DNA of 64,000 nt from Gammaproteobacteria bacterium (lineage in GTDB: Bacteria > Pseudomonadota > Gammaproteobacteria > Ga0077536). Where the stretch lies: positions 62,001-126,000 of the forward strand of contig JACQWY010000006.1 of NCBI GenBank assembly GCA_016209015.1, given 5' to 3'. Of the stretch, positions 2,370 to 30,059 are shown piece by piece. Made by a program: the position numbers and the translations under genes. The notes below the pieces were generated by a model. It was not told where the DNA came from, made no database searches, and worked only from the letters and a program-made list of their open reading frames with translations. Within the stretch, counting starts at the first letter, position 1, and each line of letters begins with the position of its first letter.

Positions 2370-3758
2370 ATGAGCAGCCGCATGAGATTCAGGACGTCGC
2401 GCCGTCGCGCGCAGAGCGCCAGTCTGGCCATCACGCTCTCCGCGCTCGCGGGCGCACCATCCGCGTCCGCCTATCAGTTGTTCGATTCCGGCGGCTTCAG
2501 CGCGAACGCGAACCTGAATCTGCGCATGGGCTTCCGGCACGGCGAGGAGATCAACTTCGGCAAGGGCGCGCTCGCCGGCTTCGGGCAGATCTTCCGCAGC
2601 ACGGGCGAGAAATCTCGCAACGATCTCGAGGTCGCGGCGAAGCCCTTCCTCGGTCTCAAATACCAGCTCGACGGCTCGGAGCTCTACAGCGGCGTGTCGG
2701 TCGTCGGCGCGACGACGACGCTCGACGGCGAGCTCTCGGGCCAGATGGCGCGCTCGGGAGACCGCGTGCTGAAGACGGATCACGCCTACCTCGGCTGGAG
2801 GAACAAGACGTTCGATCTCTCGTTCGGCGCGCAGGAATTCTCGGTCGGCGACGGCCTCATCATCGGCGACGGCAATTTCAACCAGGGTCACGACAACGGC
2901 CAGTACTGGACCGGCGCGTTCGGGGCCTGGCGGAATACGGGCATCCTGAAGATCAACACCTCGCCGATCCGCGCCGATCTCTACTGGCTGCGCACCGACG
3001 CCGATCTCGGCGGCTCGGACGTCGTCGGCATCAACGTCGAGAATTCGAGCATCGAGCGGTTCGGACGGCTCGGTCTCATGTACTTCGAGATCGTCGGCGA
3101 CAACAACAAGGGCCTGGCGCAAGGCGTGGGTTTCAAGGGCATGAAGGCCATGGGCGTGCGCGGCGCGGACCTGCACCTGCCCGGCCACCCCGAATTCAAG
3201 ATCTACGGCGAGTATGTCTACGAGGGCGGCCGCTCGGAGCTCACCGGCATTCCGAACGACGGCGCCGCCTGGTACGTCGAACCGGCCTACGAGTTCGAGT
3301 CGCTGCCCTGGAAGCCGCGGCTCCATTACCGCTATTCCCACTTCTCGGGCGATACGGCCGGCACTCGCGACAACGAGGAATACCGCGGCATGTTCTTCAC
3401 GATTTTCCGCCGCGACTGGGACACCTGGTACCAGGGCGAGATCGCCGGCGAGTTCCACCTGTTCTGCGAGAACCAGGAAACGCACATGATCAAGCTGAAG
3501 GCGCATCCGGCCGAGAAGTGGGCGGTGGCCGGCCTCTACTTCCACAACGAGCTCGATACTCCGCAGTATTTCGGGATACCGGTGCGTTCGACCGACTGGT
3601 CGGACGAGGTGAATTTCTACGTCGAGTACGTGCCGAATCAGCAGTTCTACGGCTATGCCGGCGTCGCCTGGTCCACGCCGGACGGCGCAGCGAAGGAGAT
3701 TTTCGGCAAGGAGGATCAGCTCGTGCTGGAGCTCTATCTGTCCTACACGTTCCAGTAG
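2370..3758 (+). CDS. Putative outer-membrane beta-barrel porin
   Basis: A 462-aa secreted protein. The N-terminus is arginine-rich, followed by a hydrophobic stretch and a likely signal peptidase site after residue 33 (APSASA). The rest is a series of amphipathic strands rich in Tyr, Trp and Gly with alternating polarity (for example LYWLRTD, WYVEPAYEF, LHYRYSHF, QFYGYAGVAW). It ends in LYLSYTFQ, close to the aromatic C-terminal signature of outer-membrane barrels. It resembles alginate-export/porin-like families, but I cannot name the substrate. A second ATG at 2382 is an alternative start. The hairpin element immediately upstream leaves only about 45 bp for a promoter, unless the element itself supplies one. 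Confidence 0.7.
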   Translation: MSSRMRFRTSRRRAQSASLAITLSALAGAPSASAYQLFDSGGFSANANLNLRMGFRHGEEINFGKGALAGFGQIFRSTGEKSRNDLEVAAKPFLGLKYQLDGSELYSGVSVVGATTTLDGELSGQMARSGDRVLKTDHAYLGWRNKTFDLSFGAQEFSVGDGLIIGDGNFNQGHDNGQYWTGAFGAWRNTGILKINTSPIRADLYWLRTDADLGGSDVVGINVENSSIERFGRLGLMYFEIVGDNNKGLAQGVGFKGMKAMGVRGADLHLPGHPEFKIYGEYVYEGGRSELTGIPNDGAAWYVEPAYEFESLPWKPRLHYRYSHFSGDTAGTRDNEEYRGMFFTIFRRDWDTWYQGEIAGEFHLFCENQETHMIKLKAHPAEKWAVAGLYFHNELDTPQYFGIPVRSTDWSDEVNFYVEYVPNQQFYGYAGVAWSTPDGAAKEIFGKEDQLVLELYLSYTFQ

Positions 3759-24589: not shown

Positions 24590-24747
24590 CAGCCGGGCGT
24601 CGACGTCGCGCCGACCGATGAATTCAGCGATGCGGGGCTTTCAAGAATGCGCGTTCTCGTCCGCGGTCCAGACAATGTCAGCAGACGAGCCGCAGCGCGC
24701 CTCCCGCACAATCCCGAGTGCCGTCTTCCGATCGGGGACGAGCGCGT

Positions 24748-27000
24748 GTGAGCCTCGAAACCGCGACCATTCTCGCAGTCGATGACAACGCGACGATCCG
24801 CCGCGCGATTGCCATGCGACTCGGCGCCCACGGCATGCGTGTGGAGACTGCCGCCGACGGCAAACAGGCCCTCGACCTCATCGAGCGGGAGGACTTCGAT
24901 CTCGTGCTGCTCGATCTGCAGATGCCCGAGATGCGGGGCGACGAAGTGCTCATTCACCTGCGCCAGAAATATTCGGAAACACAACTGCCGGTCATCATGC
25001 TGGCCGCGAGCGACGACAAGAAAGACATCAGCCGGACGCTGGAGCTCGGCGCGAACGACTACGTGACCAAACCCGGCGATCTGCCGATACTGCTCGCCCG
25101 GATCAAGAAGCAGCTCGCGCTCAAGGAGGCCGCGAACCGCCTCGAAGCCCTCACGACGTTCACGCAACAGAATCTGAAGCTCGTCGATGCGAGCACGACT
25201 TGCGACGGGCTGTCCGCCACCGCGGCCCTTCAGAAGTGGTATTCCAATCCGGAAGGCAGCAACGTCCGCAAGTACCATCTGCTCTACGACAACACGCCGA
25301 TGACCTGCTTCACGCTGAACCGCGACCTCGAGATCCTGGACGCGAACCGCTTCGGTGCCCGATTCCTCGGCTACGATTCCTCGGAGCTCCGCGGCCGCAG
25401 CATGCTCGAACTCTATGCGCCCGACACGCTCATTCAGGCCCAGGAATACCTCGAGGCCGTCTTCCAGCAATCCGACCGCATCCACCGCTGGGAAATCAAA
25501 CGTCGCAAACGCAATGGCGACGACCTCTGGATGCGCGAGACTGCGCGGGTCATCGGCGGCGGAGACGAAGCGATGATCCTCATGACCTGTGAGGACATCG
25601 ACGATACCTACAAGCTCTCGGAGAAGCTTTCCTATCACTCGGCACACGACGATCTCACGGGCCTGAACAACCGCAAGACCCTCGAGGAGCGCCTTGCCCG
25701 CGTCATCGAGAGCGCGCACAGCGAGGACACCCATCACACGCTCGCGATCATCGATCTCGATCAGTTCAAAATCATCAACGACTCCTGCGGCTACGCGGCC
25801 GGTGACGAGCTCCTCAAGCAGATTGCGCGGCTCATGCGCGACAACGTGCGCAAGCGCGACACCGTCGCCCGTATCGGCGGCGATGAATTCGCCATCCTCT
25901 TCGAGGACTGCCCGATGGCGACGGCGCGCGAGACGATCGACACGATCCGGACTGCAGTCGAAGCTTATGGTTTCGAGTGGAACGAACGGGGCTACCGGCT
26001 ATCGATCAGCGTCGGCCTGGGCGCTATCGACTCCCGGTGCGACGGCGTTGCGAGCGCGCTCAGCATGGCGGACACGGCGTGCTATGCCGCCAAGGATGCC
26101 GGTCGCAACCGCGTTCACGCCTATGTCGCGGATGACGCCAGCGTCGTGTCACGCCACGGGCAGATGCGCTGGGTGACGCGCATCAACGACGCGCTCCGCG
26201 ACGACCGGTTCGAATTGAGCCTGCAACAGATCACGCCAGTCAGCGGTGCCCACGACGGCGACCACTACGAACTCCTGATCCGCATGCGCGACGAGCGCGG
26301 GCACATCGTGATGCCCGGGGAATTCTTCCCGGCGGCCGAACGTTACAACCTGGCCGACAAGCTCGACCGCTGGGTCATCAAGAGTGCGCTCGCGTGGCTC
26401 GCTGAACAACGCCACCTCCTGGAATCACTGTACCTCTGCAGCATCAACTTGTCGGGCCAGTCCATCAATAACGAAGAAGTGCTGAGCTTCATCCTGCGCG
26501 AGATCGACGCGAGTGGGATACCGCCGTCGAAGCTCTGTTTCGAGGTGACCGAGACGGTCGCCATCGCTGACTTGATGCAGGCGACGCGGTTCATTTCGCT
26601 GCTCAAAGAGAAGGGCTGCATGTTCGCGCTCGATGATTTCGGCAGCGGCTTCTCCTCCTTCTCGTACCTGAAGGCGCTGCCTGTGGATTTCGTGAAAATC
26701 GACGGCAGCTTCGTCCGGGACATCGCCGTCGACTCCATAGACCGCGCGATGGTGCGCTCTATCAACGAAATCGGCCATGTCATGGGCAAGAAGACAATTG
26801 CGGAATTCGTCGAGGACGGGGCCATCCTCGAGATACTGAGATCGCTCGGTGTCGACTACGCCCAGGGCTACGGCATAGGCAGACCCATCCCGCTCGACCA
26901 GTTCCTGGCGGCCCGCGAACCATCTGCCGGTTCGGCGCACGGCGGCGGACCATCCTCGCCCACACCACTCAAAATGCCGCGTTCTTCGGGAACATCGTAG
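24748..27000 (+). CDS. REC-PAS-GGDEF-EAL cyclic-di-GMP regulator
   Basis: A 750-aa cytosolic signalling protein. The receiver domain (about 6-125) has Asp12-Asp13, phospho-acceptor Asp56 and Lys108. A PAS domain lies at about 180-290. The cyclase domain (about 300-460) has RIGGDEF intact, so it can bind or make c-di-GMP. The EAL domain (about 475-735) keeps ELLIRM in place of EAL, LDDFGSGFSSF and the DFVKIDGSF loop, consistent with an active phosphodiesterase. The GTG at 24748 has GGGGA nine bases upstream; a GTG at 24718 is an alternative with no such site. No cognate kinase is adjacent. Net direction of activity cannot be read from sequence. Confidence 0.88.
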   Translation: MSLETATILAVDDNATIRRAIAMRLGAHGMRVETAADGKQALDLIEREDFDLVLLDLQMPEMRGDEVLIHLRQKYSETQLPVIMLAASDDKKDISRTLELGANDYVTKPGDLPILLARIKKQLALKEAANRLEALTTFTQQNLKLVDASTTCDGLSATAALQKWYSNPEGSNVRKYHLLYDNTPMTCFTLNRDLEILDANRFGARFLGYDSSELRGRSMLELYAPDTLIQAQEYLEAVFQQSDRIHRWEIKRRKRNGDDLWMRETARVIGGGDEAMILMTCEDIDDTYKLSEKLSYHSAHDDLTGLNNRKTLEERLARVIESAHSEDTHHTLAIIDLDQFKIINDSCGYAAGDELLKQIARLMRDNVRKRDTVARIGGDEFAILFEDCPMATARETIDTIRTAVEAYGFEWNERGYRLSISVGLGAIDSRCDGVASALSMADTACYAAKDAGRNRVHAYVADDASVVSRHGQMRWVTRINDALRDDRFELSLQQITPVSGAHDGDHYELLIRMRDERGHIVMPGEFFPAAERYNLADKLDRWVIKSALAWLAEQRHLLESLYLCSINLSGQSINNEEVLSFILREIDASGIPPSKLCFEVTETVAIADLMQATRFISLLKEKGCMFALDDFGSGFSSFSYLKALPVDFVKIDGSFVRDIAVDSIDRAMVRSINEIGHVMGKKTIAEFVEDGAILEILRSLGVDYAQGYGIGRPIPLDQFLAAREPSAGSAHGGGPSSPTPLKMPRSSGTS

Positions 27001-27232: not shown

Positions 27233-29623
27233 ATGAAAATGGACATGAACAACGGGATGGCAAGAGTATCGCGGCTGGTGCCGCAGCGATCGGTTTCCCT
27301 GCTGACCGACTGCCAGCGCCTCGTCATGGACCGGCTGCCGGTCTGTGTCGCCGTGGTGCTCGACAAGGTCGACGACGCGTTCTTCGACCTCGCGAACAAA
27401 GCGGACAGTTCGCAGCGCCAATCGTTGTTCTTCGATGCGATGCGCGAGCTGCGCCTCAAACGACAGGCCATGACGTCCGCGTTCATCGCGAGCATCAAAG
27501 CCGAATACGACGAAGCAGTGAACCGCCGCGTGACGGCGCCTTCGACGGCGTCAGAAGTCGGCGGCCTCGAACTGAGCCTGGTCGACCCCGACGACGTCGA
27601 GGAGAGTCTCGCCATCACGAATTTCGTCGAGAGCCTGAAGTTCCGCTGCAAGCAGGAACTCTTTGCGCTCGACATCCGCATTGGTCACCTCCTGAGCGAT
27701 CCTGATCGAACGAACATCCACAATCCGTTCGGGCCGCAAGTGATCGGCGAGGCGTTCAAGCAGGCTTGCAAGATCCTGGAATCAGGCATCGAACCCCGTC
27801 TTACGATGTACAAGATGCTCGAAAAAATCGCGGGCGCCGACATCCATGGCATCTACCGCGACCTCAACCAGTCCCTGATCGCTCAGGATGTGCTGCCGAA
27901 ACTCACACCGACGTTCCATCGTGGCGGTGGCGACACCGGGGGTGCCCGCACCCGGGTCATCATCGAAACGGACGGCACTCGCGAAGAGGCGGTTGGTGAA
28001 GACGTGTTCTCCACCCTCCAGCGACTCATGACCCCCGGGGGCACCTCACGCCCCGGCGGCGTCGGCGTCGCGTCGGGAGGCGCGGGCGTACCGGGTGGCT
28101 TTGGAATGGGCGCGGTCCCTGGGATGGGCGGCGCCTTCGCGGCCGGCGGTGCTGCGGGAGATATGGTCGGAGGAGGCCTCGGCAGCGGCGCTCCGCTCGC
28201 CACGGCGGCGTTCATCGGGGCATTGAACCGCCTCCAGCACGGGGACCTCAGCGTGCTCCCGGAAGCGATCGCCGTTTCTGCCGGCACGCAAATCGCGAGC
28301 GGCCAGTCCAACGTTCTGAGCACGCTGCGGACGAGCGGCGCCATCGGCGCTTTGAACCAGACCGACGGACTCACGCTTGACGTCGTATCGATCCTCTTCG
28401 ATTACATCCTCGACGACCCCGCCATACCGGACGGCATGAAGGCGCTGATCGGCCGCCTGCAAATTCCGCTGCTCAAGGTCGCACTCGCTGATAAAGCGCT
28501 GTTCTCGAAGAAGAACCACCCGGCGCGCCGTCTGCTCGATACGCTGGCGGCAGCCGCAGTCGGCTGGAGCCCGGGGATGGCCTCCCCCGATCCGCTCTAC
28601 GACAAGGTCGAGTCAATCGTTCATCGCATCATCGCGGATTACGACCAGGACGTCGGCATCTTCGAAGCCGTGCTGTCCGACTTCGAATTCTTCCTGGCGG
28701 GATATGACCGGGAAACACAGCAGCGCGCGGAAATTTCGGCCAAGTCACTGCAGACCAAAGAGAAAGTCGTAGTCGCCAAGCTCGCCGTGGACGACGCGGT
28801 GAAAGCGCGCCTCGCGGGCCGCGATGTGCGCGATTTCGTCCGCGCGTTCATTTCGGACTATTGGCGCCAGCTCCTAATCATTACGCACGTCGAAGCCGGG
28901 CCGGATTCGGAAGCATGGCAGACCCAGCTCGGTGTGATCGACGACCTAGTCTGGTCGGTGCAGCCGAAGACGACGCCGGTCGAGCGCAAGCAACTCACCG
29001 ACAAGCTGCCCCAACTTCTGAAGCACATCAAGAACGGCATGCGTACGCTCGACATGCATCCTTCAGACTGCTCGAAGTTCCTCACCATGCTCGCGAGCGT
29101 GCATGTTGTGTCGGTGAAGCAGGTCGAGGAAGCGAGCCTCGCCGAGCGCAAACTCGTCGCCGCTGAGCAGGCCGAAACAGCGGCCGCAGTGCAGGCGCAG
29201 GACGAGGAAGCGTTCGTCAGGAAAGCTCTGGAGCGGCTGTTCGACCGCAAGTCCATCGACCCGGTGGAGCTCGACATCGACCTTTCCGCCTTCGAACCTG
29301 CCGCAACACCGGAAGTCACCGACGAGGAGCCCGTAACTGACGAGTTCCTGGAGGCCGTCATGGAGCTCGATCTTGGCGATTGGGTGGAATTCACAATGGA
29401 AGATACGTCTATCGTCCGGGCGCGATTCACCTGGATCAGCCCCGCCACGGGCCGCTATTTGTTCACTACCCGCCAGGGCCACAAGGCACTGGACCTCACC
29501 ATGACCGGACTGACCGATCACTTCCGGGCGGGTACCGCGAGGCGGATCGAGTCCCAGCCCGACCCGATATTCGACCGCGCCATCGGGGAGCTGATGGACC
29601 GTCTGGAGCACGAAGGCGGCTGA
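27233..29623 (+). CDS. DUF1631 family protein
   Basis: A 796-aa protein of the DUF1631 family, recognisable from CQRLVMDRLPVCVAVVLDKVDDAFFDLANKA at the start (quoted in part: LVMDRLPVCVAVVLD) and from QLLIITHVEAGPDSEAW and TVVWSV-like DLVWSVQPK segments later. A glycine-rich stretch lies at about 270-315. The last 90 residues (LGDWVEFTMEDTSI...RYLFTTRQG) form a small beta-rich domain resembling PilZ, but I do not see the RxxxR motif needed for c-di-GMP binding. Family members are sometimes mislabelled thymidine phosphorylase. Function is unknown. Position between a c-di-GMP enzyme and a c-di-GMP riboswitch suggests the same network. Confidence 0.82.
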   Translation: MKMDMNNGMARVSRLVPQRSVSLLTDCQRLVMDRLPVCVAVVLDKVDDAFFDLANKADSSQRQSLFFDAMRELRLKRQAMTSAFIASIKAEYDEAVNRRVTAPSTASEVGGLELSLVDPDDVEESLAITNFVESLKFRCKQELFALDIRIGHLLSDPDRTNIHNPFGPQVIGEAFKQACKILESGIEPRLTMYKMLEKIAGADIHGIYRDLNQSLIAQDVLPKLTPTFHRGGGDTGGARTRVIIETDGTREEAVGEDVFSTLQRLMTPGGTSRPGGVGVASGGAGVPGGFGMGAVPGMGGAFAAGGAAGDMVGGGLGSGAPLATAAFIGALNRLQHGDLSVLPEAIAVSAGTQIASGQSNVLSTLRTSGAIGALNQTDGLTLDVVSILFDYILDDPAIPDGMKALIGRLQIPLLKVALADKALFSKKNHPARRLLDTLAAAAVGWSPGMASPDPLYDKVESIVHRIIADYDQDVGIFEAVLSDFEFFLAGYDRETQQRAEISAKSLQTKEKVVVAKLAVDDAVKARLAGRDVRDFVRAFISDYWRQLLIITHVEAGPDSEAWQTQLGVIDDLVWSVQPKTTPVERKQLTDKLPQLLKHIKNGMRTLDMHPSDCSKFLTMLASVHVVSVKQVEEASLAERKLVAAEQAETAAAVQAQDEEAFVRKALERLFDRKSIDPVELDIDLSAFEPAATPEVTDEEPVTDEFLEAVMELDLGDWVEFTMEDTSIVRARFTWISPATGRYLFTTRQGHKALDLTMTGLTDHFRAGTARRIESQPDPIFDRAIGELMDRLEHEGG

Positions 29624-29910: not shown

Positions 29911-29990
29911 CGTCGACAAAGCCACACCTGTCGCGAGACAGGGCCGGAAAGCCGCGGATCTGGGAACATTTTCAGATGGCCGGGTTGCCA
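29911..29990 (+). ncRNA. Cyclic di-GMP-I (GEMM-I) riboswitch aptamer
   Basis: The order of elements matches the class I c-di-GMP riboswitch. ACAAAGCCACA leads into a 6-bp stem (29927-29932 with 29937-29942) capped by the GNRA tetraloop GCGA. GCCGGAAAGCC (29943-29953) follows, with A29948 at the position that intercalates in the ligand. Then comes a second hairpin (GCGGATCT...AGAT) ending in GGCCGGGTTGCC (29978-29989), which contains the conserved tetraloop-receptor/ligand strand. By alignment to my memory of the Vc2 aptamer, the ligand-contacting G20 is kept (G29921), and the adjacent G21-C46 pair is replaced by C29922-G29947, a compensatory change. It lies 70 bases before a PEP-CTERM gene. 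Confidence 0.8.
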
Positions 29991-30004
29991 ATTCGAGCTT
30001 TAGC

Positions 30005-30019
30005 ACCTGGAAATCAGGT
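30005..30019 (+). promoter_or_regulatory. Possible expression-platform hairpin of the riboswitch
   Basis: ACCTG pairs with CAGGT around a 5-nt loop, followed by an AT-rich stretch (30020-30034). The same ACCTG occurs in the aptamer at 29926-29930, so CAGGT could choose between the two partners. The downstream U-run is imperfect, so termination is uncertain. Confidence 0.35.
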
Positions 30020-30059
30020 TCTAATAATTTTGGCTTCGCTTTCTATAAGGATCAGGCTT

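Follow-up and report, generated by a model that had tools for sequence, protein, structure and literature searches.

We sought to establish what follows from a swapped base pair directly beneath the ligand in a predicted c-di-GMP riboswitch, found in a 64,000-nucleotide stretch of DNA (the window). A first-pass annotation had called this element a c-di-GMP-I-type riboswitch, had named RF01051 as the covariance model by which to check it, and had suggested that the swap may change affinity or ligand choice. Run against the genome, RF01051 matched positions 29911-29992 at 59.0 bits (E 1.1e-10; gathering cut-off 35 bits), which bears out the assignment to the c-di-GMP-I (GEMM-I) class. A cmscan of the whole window returned a single match above cut-off, at 29912-29993 on the plus strand, to RF03167 (c-di-GMP-I-GGC; 62.9 bits, E 1.8e-12). 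Both scores lie far above chance. Our own covariance model R1, whose source alignment includes the window aptamer, gave 68.9 bits. Searches of the 5.7 Mb genome with RF01051 and RF03167 yielded no further copy above cut-off, and the next matches appeared only at E-values of 0.95 and 0.48, so that the window aptamer is the sole copy in its genome. No similar DNA was found in plasmids. The features of the locus are collected in Table 1.

Table 1. Features of the riboswitch locus, in window coordinates; nucleotide names follow Vc2 numbering.
Feature	Position	Strand	Basis
Riboswitch aptamer, c-di-GMP-I (GEMM-I)	29911..29993	+	RF01051, RF03167 and R1 scores
G20, contacts ligand Galpha (G, c-di-GMP type; A, cGAMP type)	29921	+	alignment; role from literature
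P2 stem-loop	29922..29947	+	alignment, pair list, RNA fold, covariation
A47, stacked between both ligand bases (G in RF03167 consensus)	29948	+	alignment
P3 stem with receptor side	29950..29986	+	alignment
C92, Watson-Crick pair with ligand Gbeta	29988	+	alignment
Candidate switching element: GCCAA (29987-29991) pairs with UUGGC (30030-30034) around hairpin 30000-30024, hiding C92	29987..30034	+	folding only
Shine-Dalgarno-like AAGGA	30047..30051	+	sequence
Predicted target gene, encoding a PEP-CTERM-like secreted protein of 239 aa	30060..30779	+	C-terminus VPLPPALWMLGSALVGLVTVGRRKAEG, family scores

Window positions were converted to Vc2 numbering by alignment and with reference to the Vc2 structure, a correspondence that we assume throughout. 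The pocket nucleotides G20, A47 and C92 are all kept and form the c-di-GMP combination; the retention of the first two had already been read correctly from the letters. The same combination occurs in 65 of the 72 aptamers of the sample described below, and A47 in 72 of 72. The A at Vc2 position 20 that marks cGAMP (GEMM-Ib) riboswitches is replaced by G29921. The GNRA-capped stem, the core and the following strand stand in the order previously reported: a GCGA loop (29933-29936) caps P2, the upper stem is formed by 29927-29932 and 29937-29942, the internal loop includes C29925/C29944, and the pair next to the closing pair, C29923-G29946 (Vc2 22-45), is unchanged. The C29925/C29944 combination (Vc2 24/43, consensus A/A) is a second departure from the consensus that the earlier reading had not listed. 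In P3, the pair at Vc2 55-84 is G29956-C29981. Compared with Vc2 and RF01051, the window aptamer thus shares the fold, the GNRA-capped P2, the receptor side of P3, the pocket nucleotides and a surface-protein gene downstream, but carries C21-G46 for G21-C46, G55-C84 for C-G and C24/C43 for A/A. All three differences recur within the c-di-GMP-I family.

Alignment to 24 relatives confirmed that P2 closes with C29922-G29947 in place of the G21-C46 pair of Vc2. The frequency of this form was determined by collecting RF01051 matches from 398 genomes of Pseudomonadota, together with 58 genomes related to the window's own, and aligning them with a covariance model built in this analysis, which gave 72 distinct aptamers. 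The pair 21-46 (12-42 of alignment A3) was G-C in 60, C-G in 11 and G-U in 1, in a sample that is even across Pseudomonadota except for the added relatives, one of which, G442, accounts for several of the C-G cases. It was never unpaired, in agreement with the compensatory covariation proposed from the single sequence. Both forms occur side by side in each of three genomes (G352, G102 and G442). In GTDB contigs, at least 117 stretches fit the exact pattern G20, C21, G46, A47, a few of them clearly chance matches, for example in Streptomyces and Haladaptatus records; among the matches listed, most were from Desulfobacterota, and others from Campylobacterota, Gammaproteobacteria, Acidobacteria and further groups. 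Nearly all of 100 pattern loci searched with our own model contained an aptamer match (109 matches in total, several in some loci). We conclude that the C21-G46 form is widespread in Desulfobacterota, Campylobacterota and Gammaproteobacteria, and that the swap is common natural variation, already structurally documented and not new.

In the 72-aptamer sample C21-G46 was found with G20 in 9 cases and with A20 in 2, and the pair therefore does not follow the nucleotide known to set specificity. The suggestion that the swap changes ligand choice is not supported, given this mixed company, the number of natural occurrences listed above, the coexistence of C21-G46 and G21-C46 in the same genomes, and the presence of the same C-G pair in a crystallised cGAMP riboswitch. 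In that structure P2 runs from C15 to G40, J1/2 ends with A14, J2/3 is A41 and J1/3 is G74-C75, and G40 stacks on the alpha base of the ligand (PMC6274999). By position, in a mapping of our own, this arrangement would correspond to C21-G46 with A20, A47 and C92. The window aptamer resembles the Geobacter cGAMP (c-AMP-GMP) riboswitch (pilM; PDB 4YAZ) in having a C-G closing pair by the ligand (C15-G40), but where that riboswitch has A at the specificity position (A14, equivalent to G20) the window aptamer has G. Ligand choice is thus not fixed by the C21-G46 pair by itself.

The crystal structure also lends some weight to a rival proposal, in which C21-G46, perhaps helped by G55-C84 and C24/C43, alters affinity or makes the aptamer more tolerant of cGAMP. 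A passage in PMC9262584 that cites Ren et al. 2015 states that changing one nucleotide in the lower part of P2 can alter affinity and selectivity, so the swap may influence affinity, though this is not indicated for the window RNA. The C-G pair was present in 2 of 5 A20 aptamers as against 9 of 66 G20 aptamers, which are small numbers. We consider a shift of this kind unlikely, given that most sampled C21-G46 sequences carry G20, that the two forms coexist within genomes, and that the 28 readable GGDEF motifs of the window's genome include none of the cGAMP type. Enzymes of the cGAMP-type GGDEF class are marked by a change of the ND signature to NS. The window's genome encodes 38 GGDEF domains, and none of the 28 with a readable motif is of the Ser type; all have the usual ND. 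Since these 28 motifs carry the ordinary Asp, c-di-GMP is the expected signal, and we infer that it is the ligand of the window aptamer.

The best match within the clan could be taken to argue for a different ligand. RF03167 scored 62.9 bits against a gathering cut-off of 59 bits, at the top of the clan, and the window shares with this family a similar J1/2 (AAAG) and P3. On this basis the element might be a c-di-GMP-I-GGC variant with altered ligand specificity. The name 'GGC' presumably refers to nucleotides 20, 47 and 92 (G20-G47-C92), as we gather from the model consensus. The consensus of RF03167 shows G at position 47 and a G21-C46 pair, where the window has A29948 and C21-G46. Among 20 relatives examined, many other A47/C21-G46 sequences also scored higher with RF03167 than with RF01051, so that an RF03167 score is no proof of the GGC variant, and we regard this assignment as very unlikely. 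The score instead reflects common P3 and J1/2 sequence, not the defining nucleotide. Aptamers that favoured RF03167 in spite of lacking G47 were, besides the window's own, those at L029, L033, L035, L036, L040, L043, L065, L082, L115, L119 and L122; all are of the C21-G46 type except L029, which has G21-C46 and A20. The mislabelling probably affects many A47/C21-G46 aptamers. Caution is warranted in annotation, as the top Rfam label implies an unusual ligand, yet the nucleotide presumed to define it, G47, is absent.

In the Pseudomonadota sample all readable C21-G46 aptamers had G-C or A-U at 55-84, whereas G21-C46 aptamers mostly had C-G; a purine-pyrimidine pair was present in 9 of 9 of the former and 9 of 60 of the latter (Fisher p 9e-7, a value that ignores shared descent). 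The split perhaps reflects two old GEMM-I lineages. At positions 24/43, among 179 aptamers, C at 24 went with C or T at 43 in 15 of 16 cases and A at 24 with A or G in 158 of 161 (p 6e-18; descent is again ignored, so neither p-value should be read literally), and this non-canonical covariation was present in both G-C and C-G backgrounds. It seems improbable that C21-G46 together with purine-pyrimidine 55-84 makes up a second coherent GEMM-I architecture, the window locus included, with an affinity or a tolerance of cGAMP that differs measurably.

The gene that the first-pass annotation had placed under the control of the aptamer, for a PEP-CTERM-like protein, does lie downstream of it, at a distance of 64-70 nt. 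The sorting motif at the C-terminus of its product is clear by eye, and the family scores are suggestive, though they fall below their curated cut-offs (NF033554 PepA, 28.9 bits, E 9e-7, cut-off 80; TIGR03370 VPLPA-CTERM, 19.4 bits, cut-off 25.35). The genome encodes two exosortases (TIGR02602). PEP-CTERM-type C-termini also follow more than 12 other C21-G46 aptamers, as judged by a pattern and by-eye reading that admits some false positives. In Methylophaga GP59, four c-di-GMP riboswitches precede PEP-CTERM genes (PMC12530212). The window would supply a further predicted instance of PEP-CTERM matrix proteins being regulated by c-di-GMP. The two genes immediately preceding the riboswitch on its strand encode a response regulator-PAS-GGDEF-EAL protein (24718-27000) and a DUF1631 protein (27233-29623).

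We assign a probability of roughly 85% to the reading that the locus is a working c-di-GMP-I riboswitch whose P2 closes with C21-G46. In the proposed mechanism, c-di-GMP would occupy the junction of P1, P2 and P3, where it would make contact with G20 and C92 and stack against A47 and the C21-G46 pair. Binding would change how accessible the aptamer's 3' strand is, and with it the expression of the PEP-CTERM surface or matrix protein. Folding suggests that the switch may operate through the candidate element in Table 1, and in the unconstrained fold the C92 region had an unpaired probability of 0.03-0.07. Several observations weigh against this reading, and a degenerate relic that has lost control of the gene would account for some of them. 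The aptamer is a single copy, was absent from 35 other genomes of the family, and was found at none of the homologous PEP-CTERM loci fetched from other genomes, a related protein being present in 12 of 58 genomes searched, the window's own among the 12. P1 is weak, with one C-A mismatch in the RF03167 model alignment. A consensus scan and an exact-complement search found no intrinsic terminator, and constrained folding predicted no freeing of the ribosome site upon aptamer formation, the Shine-Dalgarno/AUG hairpin being present in both states. The leader fold was not clearly better than shuffled sequences (z -1.5). Against a relic stand the intact pocket nucleotides and P2 and P3 helices, and the correct placement ahead of a gene type often found after such aptamers; we judge loss of function to be quite unlikely.

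We note some further arrangements of aptamers related to that of the window. Several aptamers of this sort lie in tandem or close together within one locus at L064, L115, L056, L044 and L029, and at L064 each precedes its own PEP-CTERM gene. The C21-G46 aptamer pattern also occurs on one IMG/VR viral contig of 39.9 kb (L240:1141-1175). At L181, two C21-G46 aptamers of a single genome lie about 1.2 kb apart (2236-2318 and 3464-3546), one with A20 and C92 and the other with G20 and T92.
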